A DNA stretch of 64,000 bases, from the NCBI GenBank assembly GCA_027063305.1, contig JAMORY010000002.1, positions 1 through 64,000 on the forward strand. The letters are read 5' to 3'. The notes under the pieces were generated by a model. The model searched no databases. It was not told the origin of the DNA and saw only the letters and a program-made list of their open reading frames with translations. Position 1 is the first letter of the stretch, and each line of letters starts with the position of its first letter. A program made the translations under genes and the position numbers. Source of the DNA: Sulfurovum sp. (GTDB taxonomy: Bacteria > Campylobacterota > Campylobacteria > Campylobacterales > Sulfurovaceae). Below are positions 47,868 through 61,919 of the stretch, one piece after another.

Positions 47868-49319
47868 CCCAAATCCCGAAATAGAAATTCAAACTTCACA
47901 AAATAATCCAAGAACAGTCAATACAACAGTGAGTTTTTGCCTGTATTTCATAGATCAATGGAAAGTTGTATCAAGATACTGTATAAAAGGACAGTTTTGA
48001 AGTATTTCTCTATTTTTAAGACAGAACTATCCTGTTGGAAGTGGTAATGAATAAAAGGATTCAGTTAAGATACTTGTGGGTGGCTGTCATTCCAAACTGA
48101 TCTCATAGTTCTTCTGCCGTATGGTATTGAGTATCTCTACAAACTGATCATTGATCTTGAGGATGGTTTGTCTTGCATGGGTGATCACCTTTCCTGCAAT
48201 GTGATAGAGTTTGTAGCGAATGGTCTGTATGGTATGTTTCTGCCAGCTGCTGTGCAGTATCTGTCTAAAGAGGATGAAGAGATTGTATGCCAGTGTTCCG
48301 ATATGAAAGTAGAGTGCATTGGCTTTGAAGTGTGAGGTAGGCAGATACTTCAGATTGAAACCGTTTTTGAGCTCTTTGATACGGTTTTCACTGGTGTCTC
48401 CCCGTTGTCTGTAGAAGTGCACAAGCTCTTCAGGTGTCATGGTATTGTCATTGGGTAATTTCACCTATTGAAGCAAGAACCCTTTGATCCAAATGCGCAC
48501 CGATCACATAGGTGATATTGTTCTTATCACAGTAGTTGAACAACGCTGCTTGATACGATGCTGCATCGGCTCTAAGATAATGTATCTTCCGGTCTTTAGG
48601 CAGTTGTGATTCACACTGTTGCACGAAAGCAAGGTTATGGTCTGCAGGTGCTATATTACCCGCTCTGAACGCCTGATGTATCACATAGCCACCGTTGATA
48701 TGACCAAGTATAGGTGTGAAGCCGGGAAACATCTTATAGGTTGTCCGTGCTATGGACTTATGGCTCTCTATGACAGTTACATCGATATCCACTACCAGAG
48801 GCTCTTCGATCTTTGAGAGATAGCGTTTAAGCAGAATACGGTTGATCTTCTCCATGGCAGTAATTTTATCTTCTGTATTACGTTTAAGCCACTTACCTAT
48901 ACTGTCTGCTACAGGTATTCTCTTTATCCCAAGCAGTGTACACAATGCTTTATCTGAAGCAATCATTCGTATATCTTCGAGGTATCTGCCGCCGCTATGG
49001 AGCATCAACAGCAAAGGCTGGATAAATGTGTAGGGATCGTAACTGTGATTACTTTGGGAAGCAGGAAGATATCTGTTGCATAATCGATCTAAACGTATCG
49101 CTTTAAGAAATTCTCCGAAAACAACTTCCCCCGCTCTAGGTGTCAGTCTCTCATCGGTGTTTTCTACAGTAAAGTTTAAAAGTCTCTGTGTCATACTTCA
49201 CTCCTCGGCAGGAGCCTCACCCGTTGGGTGAAAGTGACAGGTGGGCTTCTGTTGGCTTCTTTTCTCGTATTTTACGCCATCTCCGCTTATCTTATTATTT
49301 TTCTATTTCGATTCTTGGG
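47868..49319 (-). mobile_element. IS1380-family-like insertion sequence, internally deleted (about 1.45 kb)
   Basis: Imperfect 20-bp terminal inverted repeats CCCAAATCCCGAAATAGAAA (47868-47887) / CCCAAGAATCGAAATAGAAA (complement of 49300-49319), 16/20 matching; 5-bp direct repeat GGTTG at 47863-47867 and 49320-49324. Confidence 0.85.
48087..49194 (-). pseudogene. IS1380-type transposase split in two frames with an apparent internal deletion
   Basis: N-part 49194..48448 (GGRYLEDIRMIASD, VVDIDVTVIESHKSIARTTYKMFPGFTPILGHI, YLRADAASYQ) ends at GEITQ*; C-part 48464..48087 starts at KLPNDNTMTPEELVHFYRQRGDTSENRIKELKNGF. Confidence 0.85.
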
Positions 49320-49371: not shown

Positions 49372-50379
<1,008 letters not shown>

Positions 50380-51510
50380 ATGCAGTTTATCCCTTATGGC
50401 AGGCAAACAGTCGATGACAATGATGTTGCATCTGTAGTAGAGGTGCTTCAGTCAGACTATTTGACTACAGGATCAAAGGTTGAAGCGTTTGAAACGGCAA
50501 TTGCCGCTTATTGTGGAGCAGACTACTGTGTGGCTGTTTCAAATGGAACGGCTGCTTTGCATTTAGCCTCTTTGGTACTATTGGAAAAAGGTGAAAAGGT
50601 GCTTACCACTCCCAACTCCTTTCTTGCTACATCAAATGCCATTTTGTATGCAGGAGCAATTCCTGTTTTTGTTGATATCACTGAAAATGGAAATATTGAT
50701 CTTGATCTGTGTGAAGAGGCTTTAAAAAATGATCCTGACATCAAGGCTATTTACGGTGTTGCATTTAGCGGACATATGCTTGATCAGGAGAAGTTAAAGC
50801 ATCTTAAAGAGACTTATGGTGTCACTATAGTGGAAGATTGTGCCCATGCCATTGGCGCAGAGGAGAATGCCATTAAAGCAGCTTCCTGTACCAACAGCGA
50901 TATATCTATCCTCTCTTTTCACCCTGTTAAACATATGACTACCGGTGAAGGTGGTGCGGTTACAACCAACTCCAAAACATTTTATGAAAAACTGTTGATC
51001 TTGAGAAATCATGGGATGGTGAAGAGCTCTGAAATGAAGCCCTGGGAGTATGAGATGAGAGAGCTGGGGTTTAACTATCGTATAACAGATATACAGTGTG
51101 CCCTTGGGATTTCTCAGCTTCGGAAACTTGATGGGTTCATTCAAAAGCGTCAGCAGATCGCTGAACGTTATGATAAAGCATTTAAAGGCAGTATGGTAAA
51201 ACCTCTTTATCTGTTTGACGAAAAATCCTCTTATCATCTCTATGTAGTGCAAGTGGACTTTGAACAACTGACTATTTCCAAAGAAGAACTTTTTGTTAAA
51301 ATGAGAGAGAAAAAAATCGGACTTCAGCTTCACTATATGCCAATCAACAAGCAACCCTACTATCGAAAACTTGGTTACGGAAATGAGTTCACGCCTGTAA
51401 TGGATAGGTATTACAAGAGATGTTTTTCTCTACCGATCTATCCCTTACTGAGTAATGAGGAACAAAACTATGTGATTGAATCTCTCTTTGAGGTGTTAGA
51501 TGGAAAATAA
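50380..51510 (+). CDS. pseC: UDP-4-amino-4,6-dideoxy-N-acetyl-beta-L-altrosamine transaminase, PseC
   Basis: DegT/AHBA aminotransferase: YGRQTVDDNDVASVVEVLQSDYLTTG, SFHPVKHMTTGEGGAVTTN; follows pseB. Confidence 0.94.
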   Translation: MQFIPYGRQTVDDNDVASVVEVLQSDYLTTGSKVEAFETAIAAYCGADYCVAVSNGTAALHLASLVLLEKGEKVLTTPNSFLATSNAILYAGAIPVFVDITENGNIDLDLCEEALKNDPDIKAIYGVAFSGHMLDQEKLKHLKETYGVTIVEDCAHAIGAEENAIKAASCTNSDISILSFHPVKHMTTGEGGAVTTNSKTFYEKLLILRNHGMVKSSEMKPWEYEMRELGFNYRITDIQCALGISQLRKLDGFIQKRQQIAERYDKAFKGSMVKPLYLFDEKSSYHLYVVQVDFEQLTISKEELFVKMREKKIGLQLHYMPINKQPYYRKLGYGNEFTPVMDRYYKRCFSLPIYPLLSNEEQNYVIESLFEVLDGK

Positions 51511-52219
51511 AGCAGTATGTATTATTCCTGCAAGAGGAGGCAGCAAAAGAATTCCGCGGAAAAATATTAAAGATTTTTTGGGGAAGCCTCTGATCGCATA
51601 TTCGATTGAAACCGCACTTGCTTCCAATCTCTTTGACCAGGTGATTGTAAGTACGGATGATGAGGAGATTGTAGCAGTAGCTAAAAAATATGGAGCGGAG
51701 GTTCCTTTTATGCGTCCTTCCGAGTTGGCAGATGATTTTACAGGAACAGGCAAAGTTGTTGCGCATGCTATAGAGTATTTGAAACAAAGAGGTAAAAAAT
51801 ACGACTATGTATGTACAATTTATGCGACAGCCCCTTTTTTACAGGAAAAATATTTGATAAAGGGGTTCAATGCTTTGGTTGATACCGATGCTCATATGGC
51901 ATTTTCAGTAACAAGTATGCCTTTCCCTATTCAGCGAACATTTAAAATAACTGAGGAAGGAAGATGCCAAATGTTTTTTCCTGAACATTTTCAAAGTAGA
52001 AGCCAAGATCTTGATGAAGCATATCAGGATGCGGGACAGTTTTATTGGGAAAGTTTACATCGTGAAGCAACAGATATTCCTTTTGGTCAAGACAGCATAC
52101 CTGTTATTCTACCTCGATACCTGGTACAGGATATTGATACTTTGGAAGATTGGGAAAGAGCAGAGGTAATGTATCGTGTTTTGTTGGAAATGAAAAAAGA
52201 AGAGAAGTTATATGTTTAA
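51500..52219 (+). CDS. pseF: Pseudaminic acid cytidylyltransferase, PseF
   Basis: CIIPARGGSKRIPRKNIKDFLGKPLIAYSIE; context. Confidence 0.93.
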   Translation: MENKAVCIIPARGGSKRIPRKNIKDFLGKPLIAYSIETALASNLFDQVIVSTDDEEIVAVAKKYGAEVPFMRPSELADDFTGTGKVVAHAIEYLKQRGKKYDYVCTIYATAPFLQEKYLIKGFNALVDTDAHMAFSVTSMPFPIQRTFKITEEGRCQMFFPEHFQSRSQDLDEAYQDAGQFYWESLHREATDIPFGQDSIPVILPRYLVQDIDTLEDWERAEVMYRVLLEMKKEEKLYV

Positions 52220-53255
52220 TAAAAGATTTAAAATTGATAATGTTGAAATAGGGGAAGGGTGTAAACCTTATATTATTGCAGAAATGTCTGCGAACCATGG
52301 AAATAAAATAGAAAATGCTATAGAAATTATTCAAACAGCCAAAGCTTGTGGTGCAGATGCAGTAAAGATCCAAACGTATACGGCGGATACTTTAACCTTG
52401 AACTGTCAAATAGACGCTTTTAAAGCTAAAGGAGCATGGGAGGGAGTTTATTTGTATGATTTGTACAAAGATGCAGCTATGCCATGGGAATGGATTCCAA
52501 AGCTCCAAAAAGTTGCAGCTGATGTAGGAATTACACTTTTTTCATCTCCTTTTGATTTTTCATCTGTTGCATTTTTGGAAAAACTTGATATGCCTGCATA
52601 TAAAATAGCGTCTCCTGAGATTATTGATCTTCCCTTAGTTAGGCGTATTGCCCAAACAGGAAAGCCTATTATATTGTCGACAGGAAATGCAACAATCGGT
52701 CAGATCAATGAAGCTTGTGCTGTATTGATAGAAGAAGGTGTGAAAGATGTTGCCATTCTTAAATGTACCAGTGAGTATCCTGCTTCTCCTAAAGGGATTA
52801 ATTTAAGAACAATTGCAAATTTGAAAGAGGTATTTCAGTGTCCTGTAGGTTTATCCGATCATACATTAGGATCAGCAGTGCCTATAGGTGCCATTGCATT
52901 AGGGGCAAACATCATTGAAAAACATTTTATTGTTGATAGAACAGAGACAACAGCAGATAGTTTTTTCTCTGCTACACCGGAAGAGTTAAAGATGATTGTA
53001 GATGGAGGGAAAATGGTCTATGACGCGGTTGGGGATATATCCTATCCTGTGAAAGCACTTCCTCCACAACGCTCTTTGATTGCAGTTGATGATATTGATA
53101 TTGGAGAATTACTGATAGAAAATAAGAACTTCAAGAGTTTAAGACCCGGTGGTGGTATTGAGCCAAAATATGTAAATCTTGTTGAAAATAGAAAAGCTTC
53201 TCAATTGATATTAAAGGGTACTCTCTTGACATGGGATATGATTGGTGGGAAGTGA
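52212..53255 (+). CDS. pseI: Pseudaminic acid synthase, PseI
   Basis: NeuB family with SAF domain: PYIIAEMSANHGNKIENA, LGANIIEKHFIVDRTETTADSFFSATPEEL. Confidence 0.95.
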   Translation: MFNKRFKIDNVEIGEGCKPYIIAEMSANHGNKIENAIEIIQTAKACGADAVKIQTYTADTLTLNCQIDAFKAKGAWEGVYLYDLYKDAAMPWEWIPKLQKVAADVGITLFSSPFDFSSVAFLEKLDMPAYKIASPEIIDLPLVRRIAQTGKPIILSTGNATIGQINEACAVLIEEGVKDVAILKCTSEYPASPKGINLRTIANLKEVFQCPVGLSDHTLGSAVPIGAIALGANIIEKHFIVDRTETTADSFFSATPEELKMIVDGGKMVYDAVGDISYPVKALPPQRSLIAVDDIDIGELLIENKNFKSLRPGGGIEPKYVNLVENRKASQLILKGTLLTWDMIGGK

Positions 53256-53261
53256 TAATTT

Positions 53262-54194
53262 ATGGATAGGTTAAAAGTTGCATTTTTTACAGAAGCAGGT
53301 TCAAAAAGAGGTATGGGACATTTGGTTCGTTGTCATACGATTAGCCAGGAGTTTAAAAAACATCAACACGCTATCTTTTTTAATCTTGTAAGTGACATTA
53401 GATATGACAGCAGATTTAAAAACATTAACTATATAACGTGGGAAAACTTTACGCTGACAGAAACATACGATATTGTGTTTATTGACAGTTATGAAGCAGA
53501 GCAAAAGGTATATGAAGCAATTTCTAAACATTGTAAAGTGGCAGTTTATATAGATGACTATGGAAGGTTGATATATCCTAATGGGATAGTAGTCAATTTC
53601 GCACCGGAAGCAAAGGCATACTTTAAAACGTGCAATAATAAGTATTTGTTGGGACTAAAGTATTTGCCACTCAGAAAAAAGCTAGTACAAACCAACAAGC
53701 AGAGTGGCAACGCCATTTTTATAATGCTGGGGGGAAGTGATACAGGTGGGTTAACATTGTCTGTACTAAAGGTGCTAAAAAATAATACATTAAAAAAGTA
53801 TGTAGTTATTAATAAAAAGAGTGACCTTTTGGAAGCAAAAAAATATAAAAACTGCTCTATTCTTTACAAGCCAACAGATAATATATTATTTGATGCCATG
53901 AGTAAAAGTTCTGTTGCTATTACCACAGCAAGTATGAGTGTATATGAACTTGCATATTTGAAAATACCAACGATTATATTGGCAGTGGCAGAAAATCAAT
54001 ATAAAGGTGTAAATCAGTTTTTGAAGTTTAATTTAGCACAGCAAAATATAAATATTCTTAATAAAAATTGGAAACAAAAATTACGATATAGTTTTGAGAA
54101 AGTTTGTCAAATTAAACGAACAAGAGCCGTAGTTGGGAAAAATGGAAATAATTGTATCTATCAACAAGTGATGAGAGTATTTAATGAAAAGTAA
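53262..54194 (+). CDS. pseG: PseG-like UDP-sugar hydrolase / GT-B fold protein
   Basis: FFTEAGSKRGMGHLVRCHTISQEF resembles the PseG N-terminus; IFIMLGGSDTGGLTLSVLK; position in pse cluster. Confidence 0.75.
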   Translation: MDRLKVAFFTEAGSKRGMGHLVRCHTISQEFKKHQHAIFFNLVSDIRYDSRFKNINYITWENFTLTETYDIVFIDSYEAEQKVYEAISKHCKVAVYIDDYGRLIYPNGIVVNFAPEAKAYFKTCNNKYLLGLKYLPLRKKLVQTNKQSGNAIFIMLGGSDTGGLTLSVLKVLKNNTLKKYVVINKKSDLLEAKKYKNCSILYKPTDNILFDAMSKSSVAITTASMSVYELAYLKIPTIILAVAENQYKGVNQFLKFNLAQQNINILNKNWKQKLRYSFEKVCQIKRTRAVVGKNGNNCIYQQVMRVFNEK

Positions 54195-55329
54195 AAAAGT
54201 ATTAATCCTAGGTGGAAGTCATAGAGATATCCCTCTAATAAAGGCTGCACAGGCATTGGGGTATTTTGTAATTACATTAGGTAGTAAGGCGTACTATAAA
54301 GGGCACGCTTATGCGAATAAATATTTTTTGGTTAACTTTAATAACCTAGAAAAAGTTCGGAAAGTTATTAAAGATGAAAAAATTAACTATTTGATTCCAG
54401 GTTCAGGAGAAGAATCATATTTAAATACCGTTTTATTGGCAAAAGAATTTAATATAGGAAATTTTGACAAGATAGAAGTAGCAAGATTGATTCATAATAA
54501 ATGGAAATTTAAAGATTTTTGCTTACAACATGGTATTTCTACACCAAAAGGTATATATTATCAAAACAACCAAGATTTATCTGTATTGACTTTTCCTGTT
54601 GTTATAAAACCCACAAGTCTATCAGGTGGACGAGGTGTGGATATCGTGTATAATGAAAATGAACTCCGAAAATCACTCAAAAAGACCACTGAGATTACGA
54701 ATGAAATATTTCTTGAAGAGTATATTCATGGACAATTAATTGCTTATAGTATATTTTTGCAAGATCAAAAAATAAAATACGCATTCAGTGGGGTAGATGA
54801 AACATATCTTAATCCTTATCTTATAACAACAGCATATCCATTAACACTAGATAATGAAGTAGAAGAAATATTAAGTAGAGATATTGAAAAAATTGCAAAA
54901 ATACTAAGTTTGGTAGATGGTATGTTTCATTTACAGGTTATTATTAAAGAGAGTATTCCTTATATAATAGATGTAACAAGAAGAATCCCTGGAGACTTTT
55001 ACCCCTTTCTTATAGAAGAAGCCAATGATGTAGAATATAGCAAGGCAGTAGTCAAAGCGTATTTAGGAGACAATATAGCAGAAGAGTTGGTAAAGAAAGA
55101 AGATAACTTTGTTATCAGATATGTAGTTATGCCATCAAAAAATGGAATCTATAAGGGAATAAAAATAGATCCAGCTATTGAAAATAATATTATTTACAGG
55201 TTTGACTTATTGGATAAAGGAGATATAATAAGTGACTATATAAATACACAAGTAGCGGTAATTTTGATAAAAAATTATCAAGAAACAGATAGTTTGGACC
55301 AAGTAGTTGTTGTTGAAATTGATACATAA
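54184..55329 (+). CDS. ATP-grasp domain ligase
   Basis: FPVVIKPTSLSGGRGVDIVYNENEL, FLEEYIHGQLIAYSIFL, YIIDVTRRIPGDFYPF. Confidence 0.85.
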   Translation: MKSKKVLILGGSHRDIPLIKAAQALGYFVITLGSKAYYKGHAYANKYFLVNFNNLEKVRKVIKDEKINYLIPGSGEESYLNTVLLAKEFNIGNFDKIEVARLIHNKWKFKDFCLQHGISTPKGIYYQNNQDLSVLTFPVVIKPTSLSGGRGVDIVYNENELRKSLKKTTEITNEIFLEEYIHGQLIAYSIFLQDQKIKYAFSGVDETYLNPYLITTAYPLTLDNEVEEILSRDIEKIAKILSLVDGMFHLQVIIKESIPYIIDVTRRIPGDFYPFLIEEANDVEYSKAVVKAYLGDNIAEELVKKEDNFVIRYVVMPSKNGIYKGIKIDPAIENNIIYRFDLLDKGDIISDYINTQVAVILIKNYQETDSLDQVVVVEIDT

Positions 55330-56506: not shown

Positions 56507-58819
56507 GTGAAACGTATAAAAATTCTAGACTGTACATTACGAGATGGCGGATATGTGAATAATTGGCAGTTTTCCAATATGCAAATCAGCAGGATCTCTT
56601 CTGCTTTGGAAGCGGCAGGTATTGATATCGTCGAATATGGATACCTTAATCAGAAAAAAGGAAATGCTGACAATACTACACTTTTTGATAAGATACAAAG
56701 CATTAAGGAGAAATGTAACGCGGTAGCCAAAAATGGAAAAGTAGTCATGATCAATTATGGAGACTATCCTATTGATCTTCTTCCCCATCAAAAAGAAAGT
56801 GTTATTGACGGAATCCGGTTGGCATTTCACAAAAAAGATCTACAATCGGCATTGGAGATGGCTACAGAGATCATACAGCGGGGATATAAACTTTACCTTC
56901 AACCCATGGTAACCAAAACGTATACACAAAAAGAGTTCCGAGAGATGCTGGATGCAGTAAATCATCTGATGCCGTATGCTTTTTATATTGTAGACAGTTT
57001 TGGTTCAATGACACTGACAGAGTTCAGAACCTACCTGTTATCTGCGGATGAAGTATTGTATCCGAAAATTGTTCTGGGATATCATGCTCATAATAATATG
57101 CAGCTGGCATTTTCAAATACGATCGATATGTGTCATGCCAAACTGCAAAGAGATATCATTATTGATGCCAGTATCTATGGTATGGGAAGAGGAGCGGGAA
57201 ATCTCAATACAGAATTGATCGCTGATTATTTGAATACCACGTTTCATGCATCATACAATACGTTGCCGCTACTTGAAATAATAGATCTGTATCTCTCCTC
57301 ATATATGAAACAGAACCCATGGGGATTTTCACCGGCACAGTATCTCTCCGCACGCTTTGACTGTCACCCGAACTATGCAACCTACCTGATAGGAAAAAAT
57401 ACCAATCATATTGTGAATATCAGGAATATTTTGGCACGTTTACCTCAAGAGGAAAAAGTATCTTTTAATGAAACACTTGCAGAAAAACTTTATATTGATG
57501 CATTGGTGGAAGAACGAACGCCAATCAAAAAAGTACTGCATCTGGATATGGCGAAGCATATCCTGTTGATCGCTTCAGGAAAAAGTGTAAGATCTTACCA
57601 GGCAATACTGGAGGAAAAGTCGAAAAGAAAAGAGTATCTTCTGATTGCCCTGAATCATATTCCGGAGATGACATGTGATTACTACTTCTTCTCAAACCAG
57701 AAAAGGTTCAATGAGTTTTATATGTCTGTACCATCTGATAAATTGGTGGTGAGTAATAATATAGATACGGATGGAAGGGAGTGTTATGTTTTTCCTTTTC
57801 AACAGTTTGCTTTTGTTGAAAAACAGTTTATCCCCAATATCGCAGTTGTGGTATTGCAATATCTTATTTCCCAAGGATTCGCTGAAGTTGAAGTGGCAGG
57901 ATTGGACGGATATGACCTGAAAAGCCTGGAAAACTATAGTTATAACGAGAGTACTGTTATTACGGATGTCAAAGCGATGAAAGAAGAGAATACACGTTTG
58001 GCATTTGCAATAGAGAAATTGAGCAGGAATATCCATATTCTATTTGTAACACCGTCTCAATTTCAAAAAAGTATACCGCTTAAAATTATTGGAGTGATCC
58101 CGGCTCGATACAGGTCGAGCCGTTTTGAGGGGAAACCACTATGCATGATAGCCGGAGTCCCAATGATCAAAAGAACCTATATGCAGGCAAAACAGTCTCA
58201 GTTGCTGGATAGGTTGGTTGTAGCAACAGATGATCCAAAAATAGAAGAGTACTGCAAAAAAGAACATATACCGGTGATAATGACAAGCAGTAACTGCCTG
58301 ACCGGAACCGATAGGATCGCAGAGGTAGCACAACGGGAGTCATTTGATTTATACGTCAATATCCAAGGGGATGAACCGGTGATCGATCCTGGAACCATTG
58401 ACAGTATTGTGGAAGAGTATAGGCGATATGGAAATAGATATATTGCTTATAATCTCTATAAAGTTATTGATGATATGCAGGAAGTAAAGAGTAATACGAT
58501 CATTAAAACAGTGGTGAATGAAAAGGATGAATTGATCTATATGTCCAGACATCCAATTCCATTTTCCAAAATGCAGGAAACACCTGCATATAAAAAACAG
58601 GTATGTGTGTATGGTTTTACCAAAAGAGCCCTCTCTTTGTTTGCATCACGGGACAAAACATTGAATGAGAAGTATGAGGATATTGAAATCTTGCGTTTTG
58701 TGGATATGGGCTATAAAGTAAAGATGAGAGAGACTAATGCCGATTCTATAGCGGTAGATATTCCGGATGATGTTCAAAAGGTTGAGCGCTATCTTCAGCA
58801 GAAAGGTTTGGAGTCGTGA
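56507..58819 (+). CDS. Fusion protein: HMGL-like aldolase domain + middle domain + KdsB-like CMP-ulosonate cytidylyltransferase
   Basis: N: ILDCTLRDGGYVNNWQF, GYHAHNNMQLAFSNTI, IYGMGRGAGNLNTELI; C (from about aa 526): IGVIPARYRSSRFEGKPLCMIAGVPMIKRTYMQ, NIQGDEPVIDP, YGFTKRAL. Confidence 0.88.
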   Translation: MKRIKILDCTLRDGGYVNNWQFSNMQISRISSALEAAGIDIVEYGYLNQKKGNADNTTLFDKIQSIKEKCNAVAKNGKVVMINYGDYPIDLLPHQKESVIDGIRLAFHKKDLQSALEMATEIIQRGYKLYLQPMVTKTYTQKEFREMLDAVNHLMPYAFYIVDSFGSMTLTEFRTYLLSADEVLYPKIVLGYHAHNNMQLAFSNTIDMCHAKLQRDIIIDASIYGMGRGAGNLNTELIADYLNTTFHASYNTLPLLEIIDLYLSSYMKQNPWGFSPAQYLSARFDCHPNYATYLIGKNTNHIVNIRNILARLPQEEKVSFNETLAEKLYIDALVEERTPIKKVLHLDMAKHILLIASGKSVRSYQAILEEKSKRKEYLLIALNHIPEMTCDYYFFSNQKRFNEFYMSVPSDKLVVSNNIDTDGRECYVFPFQQFAFVEKQFIPNIAVVVLQYLISQGFAEVEVAGLDGYDLKSLENYSYNESTVITDVKAMKEENTRLAFAIEKLSRNIHILFVTPSQFQKSIPLKIIGVIPARYRSSRFEGKPLCMIAGVPMIKRTYMQAKQSQLLDRLVVATDDPKIEEYCKKEHIPVIMTSSNCLTGTDRIAEVAQRESFDLYVNIQGDEPVIDPGTIDSIVEEYRRYGNRYIAYNLYKVIDDMQEVKSNTIIKTVVNEKDELIYMSRHPIPFSKMQETPAYKKQVCVYGFTKRALSLFASRDKTLNEKYEDIEILRFVDMGYKVKMRETNADSIAVDIPDDVQKVERYLQQKGLES

Positions 58820-59436
58820 TACGTGTTGTTCTTTGGGATTTTGATGGAGTTATTATAGACAGTATGGCAGTAAGAGATCAGGGGTTTCGCCAGATTTTTA
58901 ATTGCTACCCAACGGGTATGGTGGAAGACCTGATACGGTATCACCGACAAAATGCCGGTCTTTCAAGGTTTCACAAGATCAGATATTTTTATACACATAT
59001 TCTTGGTAAGGAGATTACTGATGAAAAGGTATATGACTATGCAGAGCAGTTTTCTCAAACCATGAGAAAGATCCTGATCAATCATCAATATTTAATAGAT
59101 GAGACCATAGCATATATTGAGAAAAACCATACATACTACCAGTTTCATATTGTCTCCGGTTCTGAAGAGAAAGAACTTAATTATCTTTGTCAGGAATTGG
59201 GAATTGATCAATATTTTAAAACAATAGAAGGGTCTCCTATGCCCAAGAAACAACTTGTTGAAAATATTTTAAAAGTATATGGATATGATCGTTCGGAGTC
59301 AATATTAATTGGGGATAGCATAAATGACTATGAAGCAGCGGTAGAGAATGGTATTTCATTTTATGGCTATAACAACCCTGAACTTAAAGTAGTAGCCGAA
59401 AGATATATCGATACGTTTCGGTCATGGGAACTGTAA
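58816..59436 (+). CDS. HAD-superfamily phosphatase
   Basis: VVLWDFDGVIIDSMAVRDQGF, IVSGSEEKEL, ILIGDSINDYEAAVENGI. Confidence 0.87.
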   Translation: MIRVVLWDFDGVIIDSMAVRDQGFRQIFNCYPTGMVEDLIRYHRQNAGLSRFHKIRYFYTHILGKEITDEKVYDYAEQFSQTMRKILINHQYLIDETIAYIEKNHTYYQFHIVSGSEEKELNYLCQELGIDQYFKTIEGSPMPKKQLVENILKVYGYDRSESILIGDSINDYEAAVENGISFYGYNNPELKVVAERYIDTFRSWEL

Positions 59437-60687
59437 ATGGCAGGTTTACTTTCGCCAAGAATACTCAATTTGGGACTAAGAACAGTATCGATGGCAGGCA
59501 GATTTGTCCTGATCCTTTCAATTGCAAAACTGCTTTCAGCAGAAGAGTTGGGGCTGTTTGGACTATTGAGCACAACGATCGGTTTTTTTGTTTTGCTTTT
59601 TGGATTTGATTTCTATGGATATGCCAACAGAGAGATGCTGGCGGCTGGACATGAAAACCTTTTTAATATACTGATAAATCAGTTATATGCCTATATCCCG
59701 CTCTATATGGTTTTTATGCCGTTTGCCATAGGTGTTTTTTGGAAAGAAGTGCTTCCCTGGAGTTATGCAGGATGGTTTTTGACCCTTGTGTTTATTGAAC
59801 ATCTTTCAACAGAGTTTAACAGGGCTTTGAACATGATGCAGCATCCTCTTGCTGCAACGGTAGTACTGTTTTTGAGAAGTGCCTCCTGGGTACTTTTTGT
59901 GCTGCCGTTAATGTATTTTGAAGCACAATGGAGACATTTGGATATATTGCTTGGCGGATGGCTGTTTGGAGGGGTATTCTCTATACTTTTTGCTATTTGG
60001 TTTCTGTCAAAGCATATGATGGTGAAAAAAAACTTCAAGCTTGATACCACATGGATCCTTCGTGGTTATAAGGTAGGTATGATTTTTTTTCTGGGTACAC
60101 TCAGCCTGCAGGCAATTACGCTGCTTGACAAGTTTTGGCTAAAATACCTTTCTGGTGAAGCAATGGTAGGGGTTTATACATTTTACTGGACACTGGTGTT
60201 GGGGATGACAGCATTTATTCATGCAGGAATGATCGTATTTCTTTCTCCCAAAATTGTTAAAGCATTCCAGGAAAAACAGTTTGATGATTTTAATGCGCTG
60301 TTGTCACAGTTTCTGAAGGAGTTGGCAGTTGCAAGTGTGTTTATGGTGGTTGTTCTTTTTAGTATAATGCCTATTGTGGTAGGGTGGGTAGGAAAAGAGA
60401 TCTATACAGAACATTATCACATATTGTATCTGTTGGGGGTAACAGGAGTATTTATCGTATTGACAAATCATCCTCATACATTTCTATATGCCGCACGGAA
60501 AGACAAATATATGCTTCTTGCCAATATCTCTGCACTGTTGATATTCATATCAGGTATGTTTGTAATGAAACAGATGGAGGGGTATACGGCCATTGAACAG
60601 GTGACACTGGTGATGATGGGAACATACGGCTGGATGCTGGGTATTAAGTCGCTGGGGTATTTATATTATAGAAAAGAGTATTTATGA
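59437..60687 (+). CDS. Polysaccharide/O-antigen flippase (Wzx/MATE-like)
   Basis: Multi-TM protein; SAEELGLFGLLSTTIGFFVLLFGFDFYGYANREM. Confidence 0.85.
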   Translation: MAGLLSPRILNLGLRTVSMAGRFVLILSIAKLLSAEELGLFGLLSTTIGFFVLLFGFDFYGYANREMLAAGHENLFNILINQLYAYIPLYMVFMPFAIGVFWKEVLPWSYAGWFLTLVFIEHLSTEFNRALNMMQHPLAATVVLFLRSASWVLFVLPLMYFEAQWRHLDILLGGWLFGGVFSILFAIWFLSKHMMVKKNFKLDTTWILRGYKVGMIFFLGTLSLQAITLLDKFWLKYLSGEAMVGVYTFYWTLVLGMTAFIHAGMIVFLSPKIVKAFQEKQFDDFNALLSQFLKELAVASVFMVVVLFSIMPIVVGWVGKEIYTEHYHILYLLGVTGVFIVLTNHPHTFLYAARKDKYMLLANISALLIFISGMFVMKQMEGYTAIEQVTLVMMGTYGWMLGIKSLGYLYYRKEYL

Positions 60688-61919
60688 CCGGGAAAAAAAA
60701 TATTTTAGTTTATATTAATGATTCTTTGGGGGAACTGGACTGGGTCGCTCCATATATGCAATCGGAGGAAGCACGGGATTTTTGTTTCTATATATATTTG
60801 AATGGTCCTGGAAGTACCTATGATGAAAAAATAAAGATCCTTCAGCGCTATGGTTTGGGGAGTGCTGATAACATACACTGTGTGAACCGTCGTACAAGAC
60901 TGGAACCGTTCCTTTTTCAGATAGATATGTTTCTAAACAGGGTGCTTGGGCGGATTAAACTGGTTTCTTTCCATCTGTTTGAAATGTGTCGGAGTACTAT
61001 AGATGGGGTAAGATGGCTGCTGTCCCGACTTCCGTTGGTAAAAAGCAGTGTAGCATTTGATGTGATTTTCAGGGATTATAATCTCAAAGAGAGTTTTGCC
61101 ATGAATTGCTTTATCAGGCATAGCCCTCAGGCAAAGATCGTGATCTATCCCCATGCAGTTGGTCTGCAAAGAAAACATGAAATGTGCCCCCGTGAACCGG
61201 CTAAGCAGGTACAGGCAGACCTGTGGCTGGAAAATTCGGACTATTCAGATATTATGAAGTATGACCCATACTATCAAAAGATATTTTTTGCTTCCGGAGT
61301 ACCGGGATTCGATATAAACTATAAACGCCCGGCTCTTTTTGATGTCGCATCAAAAAAGGCGGTCATTATAACACGGGACTGCAGTATGACTTTTGGTTTT
61401 ACCTATGAAATGGCTATGAAAGCTTTTGACGAACTTTTGGAAAAACTTGGGGAACAGGGGTATCAAGCCTACATCAAGCATCATCCGAGAGATAGGGAGC
61501 TGAAGCGATGGAGAAAGATCCAGCAGAAGTATCAACACTGTTATGAACTTGAAGAGAGTTTGAATACGCTGACGATGGAACATGCTGTATGTTTTACACT
61601 CTTTTCAACAGCACCGCTTTTTTTGCTTTCCCGTGGTGTCCCGGTATTGGAGTTTTCCCCCTATAGGCAGTATGATGCATACCAGCAGCGTTTTCCGATG
61701 CATTATAAAAATGAAAATGGTGAGATGACACATGACCTTCTGTCTTTAAAGCTTTTTGATCGCATTGATGTATCTACAGATGATCTCTCTTCTTGTCTGG
61801 AAGCATCTTCTCTCAAGGATCTTGCTTTACGGCAGTATAAGGTATGTCAAACTATATTTCCTCCCGGAGCAAACCAAAAAATCACAATGAAACTTCAAGA
61901 GATAACAGATGGCCGGTAA
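60684..61919 (+). CDS. Putative surface-glycan glycosyltransferase (HP-motif, GT-B-like)
   Basis: IVIYPHAVGLQRKHE, AYIKHHPRDREL, FTLFSTAPLFLLSRGVPVLEF; glycan locus context. Confidence 0.6.
   Translation: MTGKKNILVYINDSLGELDWVAPYMQSEEARDFCFYIYLNGPGSTYDEKIKILQRYGLGSADNIHCVNRRTRLEPFLFQIDMFLNRVLGRIKLVSFHLFEMCRSTIDGVRWLLSRLPLVKSSVAFDVIFRDYNLKESFAMNCFIRHSPQAKIVIYPHAVGLQRKHEMCPREPAKQVQADLWLENSDYSDIMKYDPYYQKIFFASGVPGFDINYKRPALFDVASKKAVIITRDCSMTFGFTYEMAMKAFDELLEKLGEQGYQAYIKHHPRDRELKRWRKIQQKYQHCYELEESLNTLTMEHAVCFTLFSTAPLFLLSRGVPVLEFSPYRQYDAYQQRFPMHYKNENGEMTHDLLSLKLFDRIDVSTDDLSSCLEASSLKDLALRQYKVCQTIFPPGANQKITMKLQEITDGR

Follow-up and report, generated by a model that had tools for sequence, protein, structure and literature searches.

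A fused aldolase, middle domain and KdsB-type CMP-transferase in Sulfurovum suggests a pyruvate-based route to CMP-activated keto-sugars

We identified a gene in Sulfurovum sp. whose single product joins a DmpG-like metal aldolase domain (ALD), a middle domain (MID) and a KdsB-like CMP-transferase domain. The gene lies within a 64,000-nucleotide stretch of contig JAMORY010000002.1, referred to below as the window (Table 1). The module of which this protein is one form, ALD-MID coupled to a CMP-transferase, is widespread. The protein probably makes and CMP-activates an acidic keto-sugar by a pyruvate route that would run parallel to the PEP-dependent KdsA and NeuB routes. Judging from sequence comparison, we favor this reading because of the domains and residues present, the exchange of partners beside the aldolase, the existence of viral fusions, the position of the KdsB domain in its tree, the host's own KdsA and KdsB, the linkage to a HAD-family phosphatase, the link to ThDP enzymes, and a kinase found in five loci.

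Table 1. Coordinates of the fusion gene, its domains and neighboring genes in the window
Feature	Position	Strand	Basis and remarks
Three-domain ALD-MID-KdsB protein	56507..58819	+	770 aa, GTG start; Pfam/NCBIfam domains; AlphaFold2 model
ALD, DmpG/HOA-like DRE-TIM metal aldolase domain	56507..57496	+	residues ~1-330; Pfam, NCBIfam, PDB matches
MID, MptE-like/DUF115/Maf/sialyltransferase-type fold domain	57542..58081	+	residues ~346-525 (~180 aa); AlphaFold2 + Foldseek
KdsB-like CMP-transferase domain	58082..58816	+	residues 526-770; Pfam, NCBIfam, tree, alignment
HAD-family phosphatase, candidate ulosonate-phosphate phosphatase	58816..59436	+	Pfam/NCBIfam; GTG start 58816
Wzx-type polysaccharide flippase (context)	59437..60687	+	PF01943 6.4e-8
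Polysialyltransferase-like glycosyltransferase, candidate CMP-sugar user	60684..61919	+	PF07388 5.4e-5, at cut-off
PseB, PseC, PseF, PseI, PseG-like: pseudaminic acid genes, same glycan island (context)	49387..54194	+	NCBIfam

The reading frame runs for 770 codons without a stop, compared with a maximum of 167 stop-free codons when this stretch was mononucleotide-shuffled 200 times. An AAGG is found approximately 8 nt 5' of the GTG start codon, and the start position is the same in homologues. Pfam recognizes an HMGL-like domain (1.1e-18) and a CTP_transf_3 domain (2.4e-43), in agreement with an earlier note on this sequence that had called a three-part fusion with an HMGL-type aldolase at its N-terminus and a KdsB-like cytidylyltransferase. 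The Pfam search gave no match to the region between the two. The AlphaFold2 model of the full-length fusion has a mean pLDDT of 91.9 and a pTM of 0.83. Relatives with the whole three-domain layout occur in other genomes at 40–60% identity, which rules out a unique or chimeric ORF or an assembly artefact. Since the three domains are alike in GC content (0.38–0.40) and full-length relatives exist, the fusion is a genuine gene. The earlier note had left room for its being already characterized; neither a described fusion nor HMGL-type aldolases in glycan loci were found in the open-access papers searched.

The closest PDB chain to ALD is 3dxi, a 'putative aldolase' (6.8e-31) and the nearest solved relative, whose 320-aa chain contains neither MID nor KdsB. 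The next matches are 4-hydroxy-2-oxovalerate aldolases. ALD shares with this family (DmpG/BphI; PDB 1nvm, 4lrs, 8ih7) the fold, the LRDG motif, the paired histidine metal ligands and the expected reaction class. The motif residues R12 and D13 and the metal-ligand histidines H193 and H195 are kept in 80 of 80 aligned sequences, which answers the concern in the earlier note that the N-terminal domain might lack catalytic or metal residues. However, ALD is distant from DmpG and BphI in sequence. The NCBIfam match to 4-hydroxy-2-oxovalerate aldolase (3.4e-25) is under the cut-off, and the HOA models score 80 bits against 286 (TIGR03217) and 88.8 against 229 (NF006049); ALD is therefore a relative of this enzyme rather than the enzyme itself. 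The two also differ in location, with ALD in glycan loci and DmpG/BphI in aromatic degradation. Additionally, Tyr16 in the alignment occupies the place of the histidine after LRDG that is catalytic in DmpG. From its family and its conserved residues we infer that ALD is a metal-dependent pyruvate aldolase.

Because Tyr16 replaces the DmpG histidine, Claisen or other chemistry is still compatible with the sequence. ALD might condense an acyl-CoA or cleave a metabolite, leaving the KdsB domain to activate an ulosonate of other origin, for example from PseI. Such chemistries do occur among the DRE-TIM enzymes, isopropylmalate and homocitrate synthases are among the weak matches to ALD, and PseI and PseF are encoded upstream. 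However, these matches are far weaker than those to aldolases, which rank at the top, and the window has its own PseF. In many bacteria and phages, moreover, ALD and KdsB are neighbors or parts of one protein, and most of these loci have no NeuB-type cluster next to the gene. We consider this alternative very unlikely.

The KdsB domain scores above the cut-off of the NCBIfam subfamily model NF009905 (260.9 bits versus 255). It passes only this and a second subfamily model, NF003952, and fails the equivalog models TIGR00466 (135 versus 155) and NF003948 (134.5 versus 281). The alignment shows that K543, D622 and D751 of the two-metal mechanism are kept, in line with the assignment to the KdsB-type cytidylyltransferases. 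In KdsB the lysine and the two aspartates are needed for CTP and two metals (PMC3149649). Three positions that are invariant in ten canonical KdsBs from relatives are altered in the fusion, namely histidine to Q698, glutamine to I728 and lysine to D725. The capsule enzyme 1gq9, unlike the fusion, has the canonical histidine and glutamine at the first two. In a tree of KdsB sequences the fusion domain clusters with aldolase-associated KdsBs, apart from canonical KdsBs including that of its own genome (split support 79/96), and the fusions and their near neighbors form a group with support of 99/97. The KdsB domains of two divergent fusions (G055/L033 and G084) fall on the canonical side of the tree, possibly a long-branch effect.

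We scanned genomes for the module and kept the best 80 of a larger number of matches, so that the frequencies given here describe only those 80. The ALD-MID gene could be delimited in 79 of these loci, and in 72 of the 79 a CMP-transferase (KdsB- or NeuA/PseF-type) or a YerE-like ThDP enzyme is fused to it or adjacent. KdsB is fused in 6 of these 79 loci and adjacent in 22, a NeuA/PseF-type partner is present in 25, a ThDP enzyme in 17 and a combination in 2; the remaining 7 have none. The partner labels change repeatedly along the ALD-MID tree (KdsB 15, NeuA 14 and ThDP 3 times), and the switching of the first two indicates that KdsB and NeuA types stand in for each other. This recurrent adjacency, recurrent fusion and exchange of partners argues for the functional coupling of aldolase and CMP-transferase that the earlier note had suggested. 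Around half of the CMP-type loci among the best 80 matches have a HAD gene no more than 8 genes away. A survey of the phylum identified MID in 12 of 398 genomes, in loci with KdsB- or NeuA-type partners and often a HAD gene. A kinase near the 2-keto-3-deoxygluconate/galactonate kinases adjoins ALD-MID in five of the 79 loci (L035, L037, L047, L067 and L070). In none of these five does ALD-MID adjoin a HAD gene from either of the two usual clusters.

The module is also found in viral contigs. ALD is fused directly to KdsB, without MID, in 36 of them, several of which are near-copies, and in three others (L138, L158 and L159) MID, ALD and KdsB occur as separate close genes. Pairs of ALD and a ThDP enzyme occur in 8 viral contigs, several with RfbH. 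Phages may thus make their own CMP-ulosonate. Among the phage-borne two-domain fusions (L119-L156), some, including L119 and L154, are near MptE/GT29-like genes.

Canonical KdsA and KdsB are encoded elsewhere in the Sulfurovum genome, and KdsA was found in all 7 genomes tested, this one included. Replacement of the Kdo pathway by the fusion is ruled out by the presence of both. The fusion could instead provide a second, pyruvate-based route to Kdo itself that feeds WaaA, the Kdo transferase. In two Campylobacterota genomes the three-domain fusion and a HAD gene are directly downstream of WaaA (G011, locus L025, and L032), and the C-terminal domain does reach a KdsB subfamily cut-off. However, KdsA and a canonical KdsB are present in the host, and Q698, I728 and D725 depart from the canonical pattern. 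The module is also common in Bacillota among the best 80 matches of the genome scan. Bacillota mostly lack Kdo. We regard Kdo as an improbable product.

An AlphaFold2 model of MID from an alignment of 80 homologues has a pLDDT of 94.1. The conserved residues are G358, N383, F394, N397, R400, N418, G465, D467, G468 and T515. In Foldseek searches of the PDB the model matches Maf (5mu5, probability 0.95) and human sialyltransferases (0.90–0.95), weakly in both cases (E ~0.01, TM ~0.5), and among viral models (BFVD) it matches an MptE-like protein (1.3e-6, probability 1.00, TM 0.66). The lowest E-value against the PDB belongs to an SDR-type protein, 6jkg, but with a TM of only ~0.33 compared with ~0.5 for Maf and the sialyltransferases, and we rejected the assignment of MID as a Rossmann dehydrogenase. 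The MID of the window does not match PF01973 (MptE-like/DUF115) in Pfam; 12 of the 80 homologues match it weakly at E<=0.01, the best at 1.1e-4. A profile search retrieved 6-hydroxymethylpterin pyrophosphokinase and CMP-Neu5Ac transferase, both at sub-significant E-values. MID thus resembles the MptE-like/DUF115 proteins, Maf flagellin glycosyltransferases and GT29/GT42 sialyltransferases in its predicted fold and its glycine-rich and G-x-D motifs, whereas the sequence similarity of the window copy to them is near noise. The earlier note had described the domain as unknown and guessed that it was DUF115-like; the guess agrees with the fold match, and with the fold recognizable the description as unknown no longer applies.

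From the predicted fold and conserved residues, the ligand of MID is probably a nucleotide or nucleotide-sugar, and the domain would act either as a transferase or in assisting the aldolase. The same residues are kept in loci with a CMP-transferase and in ThDP loci without one, so the ligand is probably common to the two pathway types; a cytidine nucleotide would be compatible with this, though that is a guess. If MID were a transferase, a single chain would make, activate and transfer the sugar. The matches to Maf, human sialyltransferases and MptE-like proteins are consistent with this, as are the MptE/GT29-looking genes near the phage ALD-KdsB genes L119 and L154. However, the fold matches in the PDB are weak, and conserved residues that do not change in loci lacking a CMP-transferase weaken the case for a dedicated CMP-ulosonate transferase. 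We therefore consider the transferase role possible but doubtful.

ThDP enzymes of the YerE/ErwE type, which belong to branched CDP-sugars (PMC12247030), adjoin ALD-MID in the 17 loci noted above; the fusion locus has none, its partner being KdsB. These ThDP partners resemble acetolactate synthase. Clusters of the RfbF/G/H type are enriched in the ThDP loci, and in one that was checked RfbF, RfbG and RfbH all score over their cut-offs. The preferred donors of the YerE-like enzyme ErwE to CDP-4-keto-3,6-dideoxyglucose are 4-hydroxy-2-oxo acids, not pyruvate (PMC12247030). Since these donors are the product class of a DmpG-like aldolase, they are a separate line of evidence in favor of the reaction that we propose for ALD. 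The pairing of ALD with a YerE-like enzyme and CDP-sugar genes in 17 loci also runs against the implication of the earlier note that the aldolase is tied to ulosonates.

The gene 3' of the fusion encodes a HAD-family phosphatase, and its start overlaps the TGA stop of the fusion by 4 bp (GTGA, 58816-58819), as had been noticed earlier. A HAD homologue is likewise found 3' of the fusion in G011, L031, L032, L033/G055, G084 and two further genomes. In the pathway that we propose, ALD would use a divalent metal held at D13, H193 and H195 to join the enolate of pyruvate to an aldehyde that is probably a sugar phosphate, as its family and residues suggest. The product would be a 3-deoxy-2-ulosonate, which is a 4-hydroxy-2-oxo acid. 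The linked HAD enzyme would then remove the phosphate. The KdsB domain, which is homologous to known CMP-transferases and keeps their catalytic residues, would convert the ulosonate and CTP to CMP-ulosonate, and a sialyltransferase-like enzyme, perhaps that encoded at 60684-61919, may add the sugar to a surface glycan. The route would run on pyruvate, not PEP, beside the normal Kdo and pseudaminate pathways of the host. The neighboring genes of the surveyed loci did not single out an acceptor aldehyde.

One specific form of this pathway would use glyceraldehyde or its phosphate, yielding a ulosonate with six carbons, akin to 2-keto-3-deoxygluconate, that is then CMP-activated. The kinase beside ALD-MID in five loci fits such a product, and the minimal loci with only WaaA, the fusion and HAD lack sugar-building genes, so that the aldehyde might come from central metabolism. 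However, the kinase is present in only 5 of 79 loci, sequence cannot separate short-chain from longer-chain products, and we know of no CMP-hexulosonate. The six-carbon form is on balance unlikely, if less so than Kdo.

In textbooks, CMP-ulosonates are reached through two types of PEP-dependent synthase, KdsA-like and NeuB-like. The proposed pathway follows the same logic as the KdsA/KdsC/KdsB route to CMP-Kdo and the NeuB/NeuA and PseI/PseF routes, in that a C-C bond is formed to a three-carbon keto acid unit, phosphate is removed where needed and the product is activated with CMP. A KdsB-family activating domain is common to the fusion and the CMP-Kdo route. However, the fusion has a pyruvate-type DRE-TIM metal aldolase in place of the PEP-using synthases, and the synthase is fused to the activator. 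No NeuB or KdsA synthase domain was found within the fusion protein using Pfam and NCBIfam, and the NeuB-type PseI is a separate gene (52212-53255). Together with the KdsA and canonical KdsB elsewhere in the genome and the split in the KdsB tree, the separate PseI is consistent with a CMP-activated ulosonate apart from the canonical NeuB and KdsA routes, and the comparison supports this interpretation of the earlier note. Each enzyme class is already known; we found no account of the combination in the open-access literature that was searched.

More broadly, the data may reflect a third route to CMP-3-deoxy-2-ulosonates, a proposal on which we are evenly divided. A metal-dependent pyruvate aldolase of the DmpG type would take the place of KdsA or NeuB in many bacterial phyla and in phages, some lineages having fused this synthase to the activator and to a domain with the sialyltransferase fold. 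The same aldolase family would also provide YerE-like enzymes with the 4-hydroxy-2-oxo acids that go into branched CDP-sugars. If so, ulosonates that have so far not been sought would be present in many surface glycans, among them the glycans of gut Bacillota without Kdo, and the aldolase would be a likely source of hydroxy-keto acids for ErwE-type enzymes. The fusion is a handy single polypeptide for studying this aldolase-based entry.

A homologue of the polysialyltransferase-like gene, with 30% identity over 412 aa, adjoins a detached KdsB gene in another genome (G034), and a phmmer search of the 79-locus neighbor set with the window gene gave no match. This detached KdsB, in the region 9007-13482 of L028, is 65% identical to the window domain, and its contig contains no aldolase and ends there. 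Its neighbors are a DHQ-synthase-like gene, an SDR gene, another nucleotidyltransferase-like gene and the polysialyltransferase-like homologue.

Among the pseudaminic acid genes of the window, the PseG-like one has a score of 106, short of its cut-off of 153.6. An ATP-grasp gene comes next (53262-55329), and no acetyltransferase is found among the annotated neighbors. On these grounds the pathway to pseudaminate may differ from the usual one. No Rfam elements were identified in 48-64 kb of the window. The glycan island is bordered on its left by two overlapping ORFs on the minus strand (248 and 125 aa; 48087-49194) that look like a split, probably frameshifted transposase, and the GC content falls from ~0.53 to 0.30–0.43 across this region.
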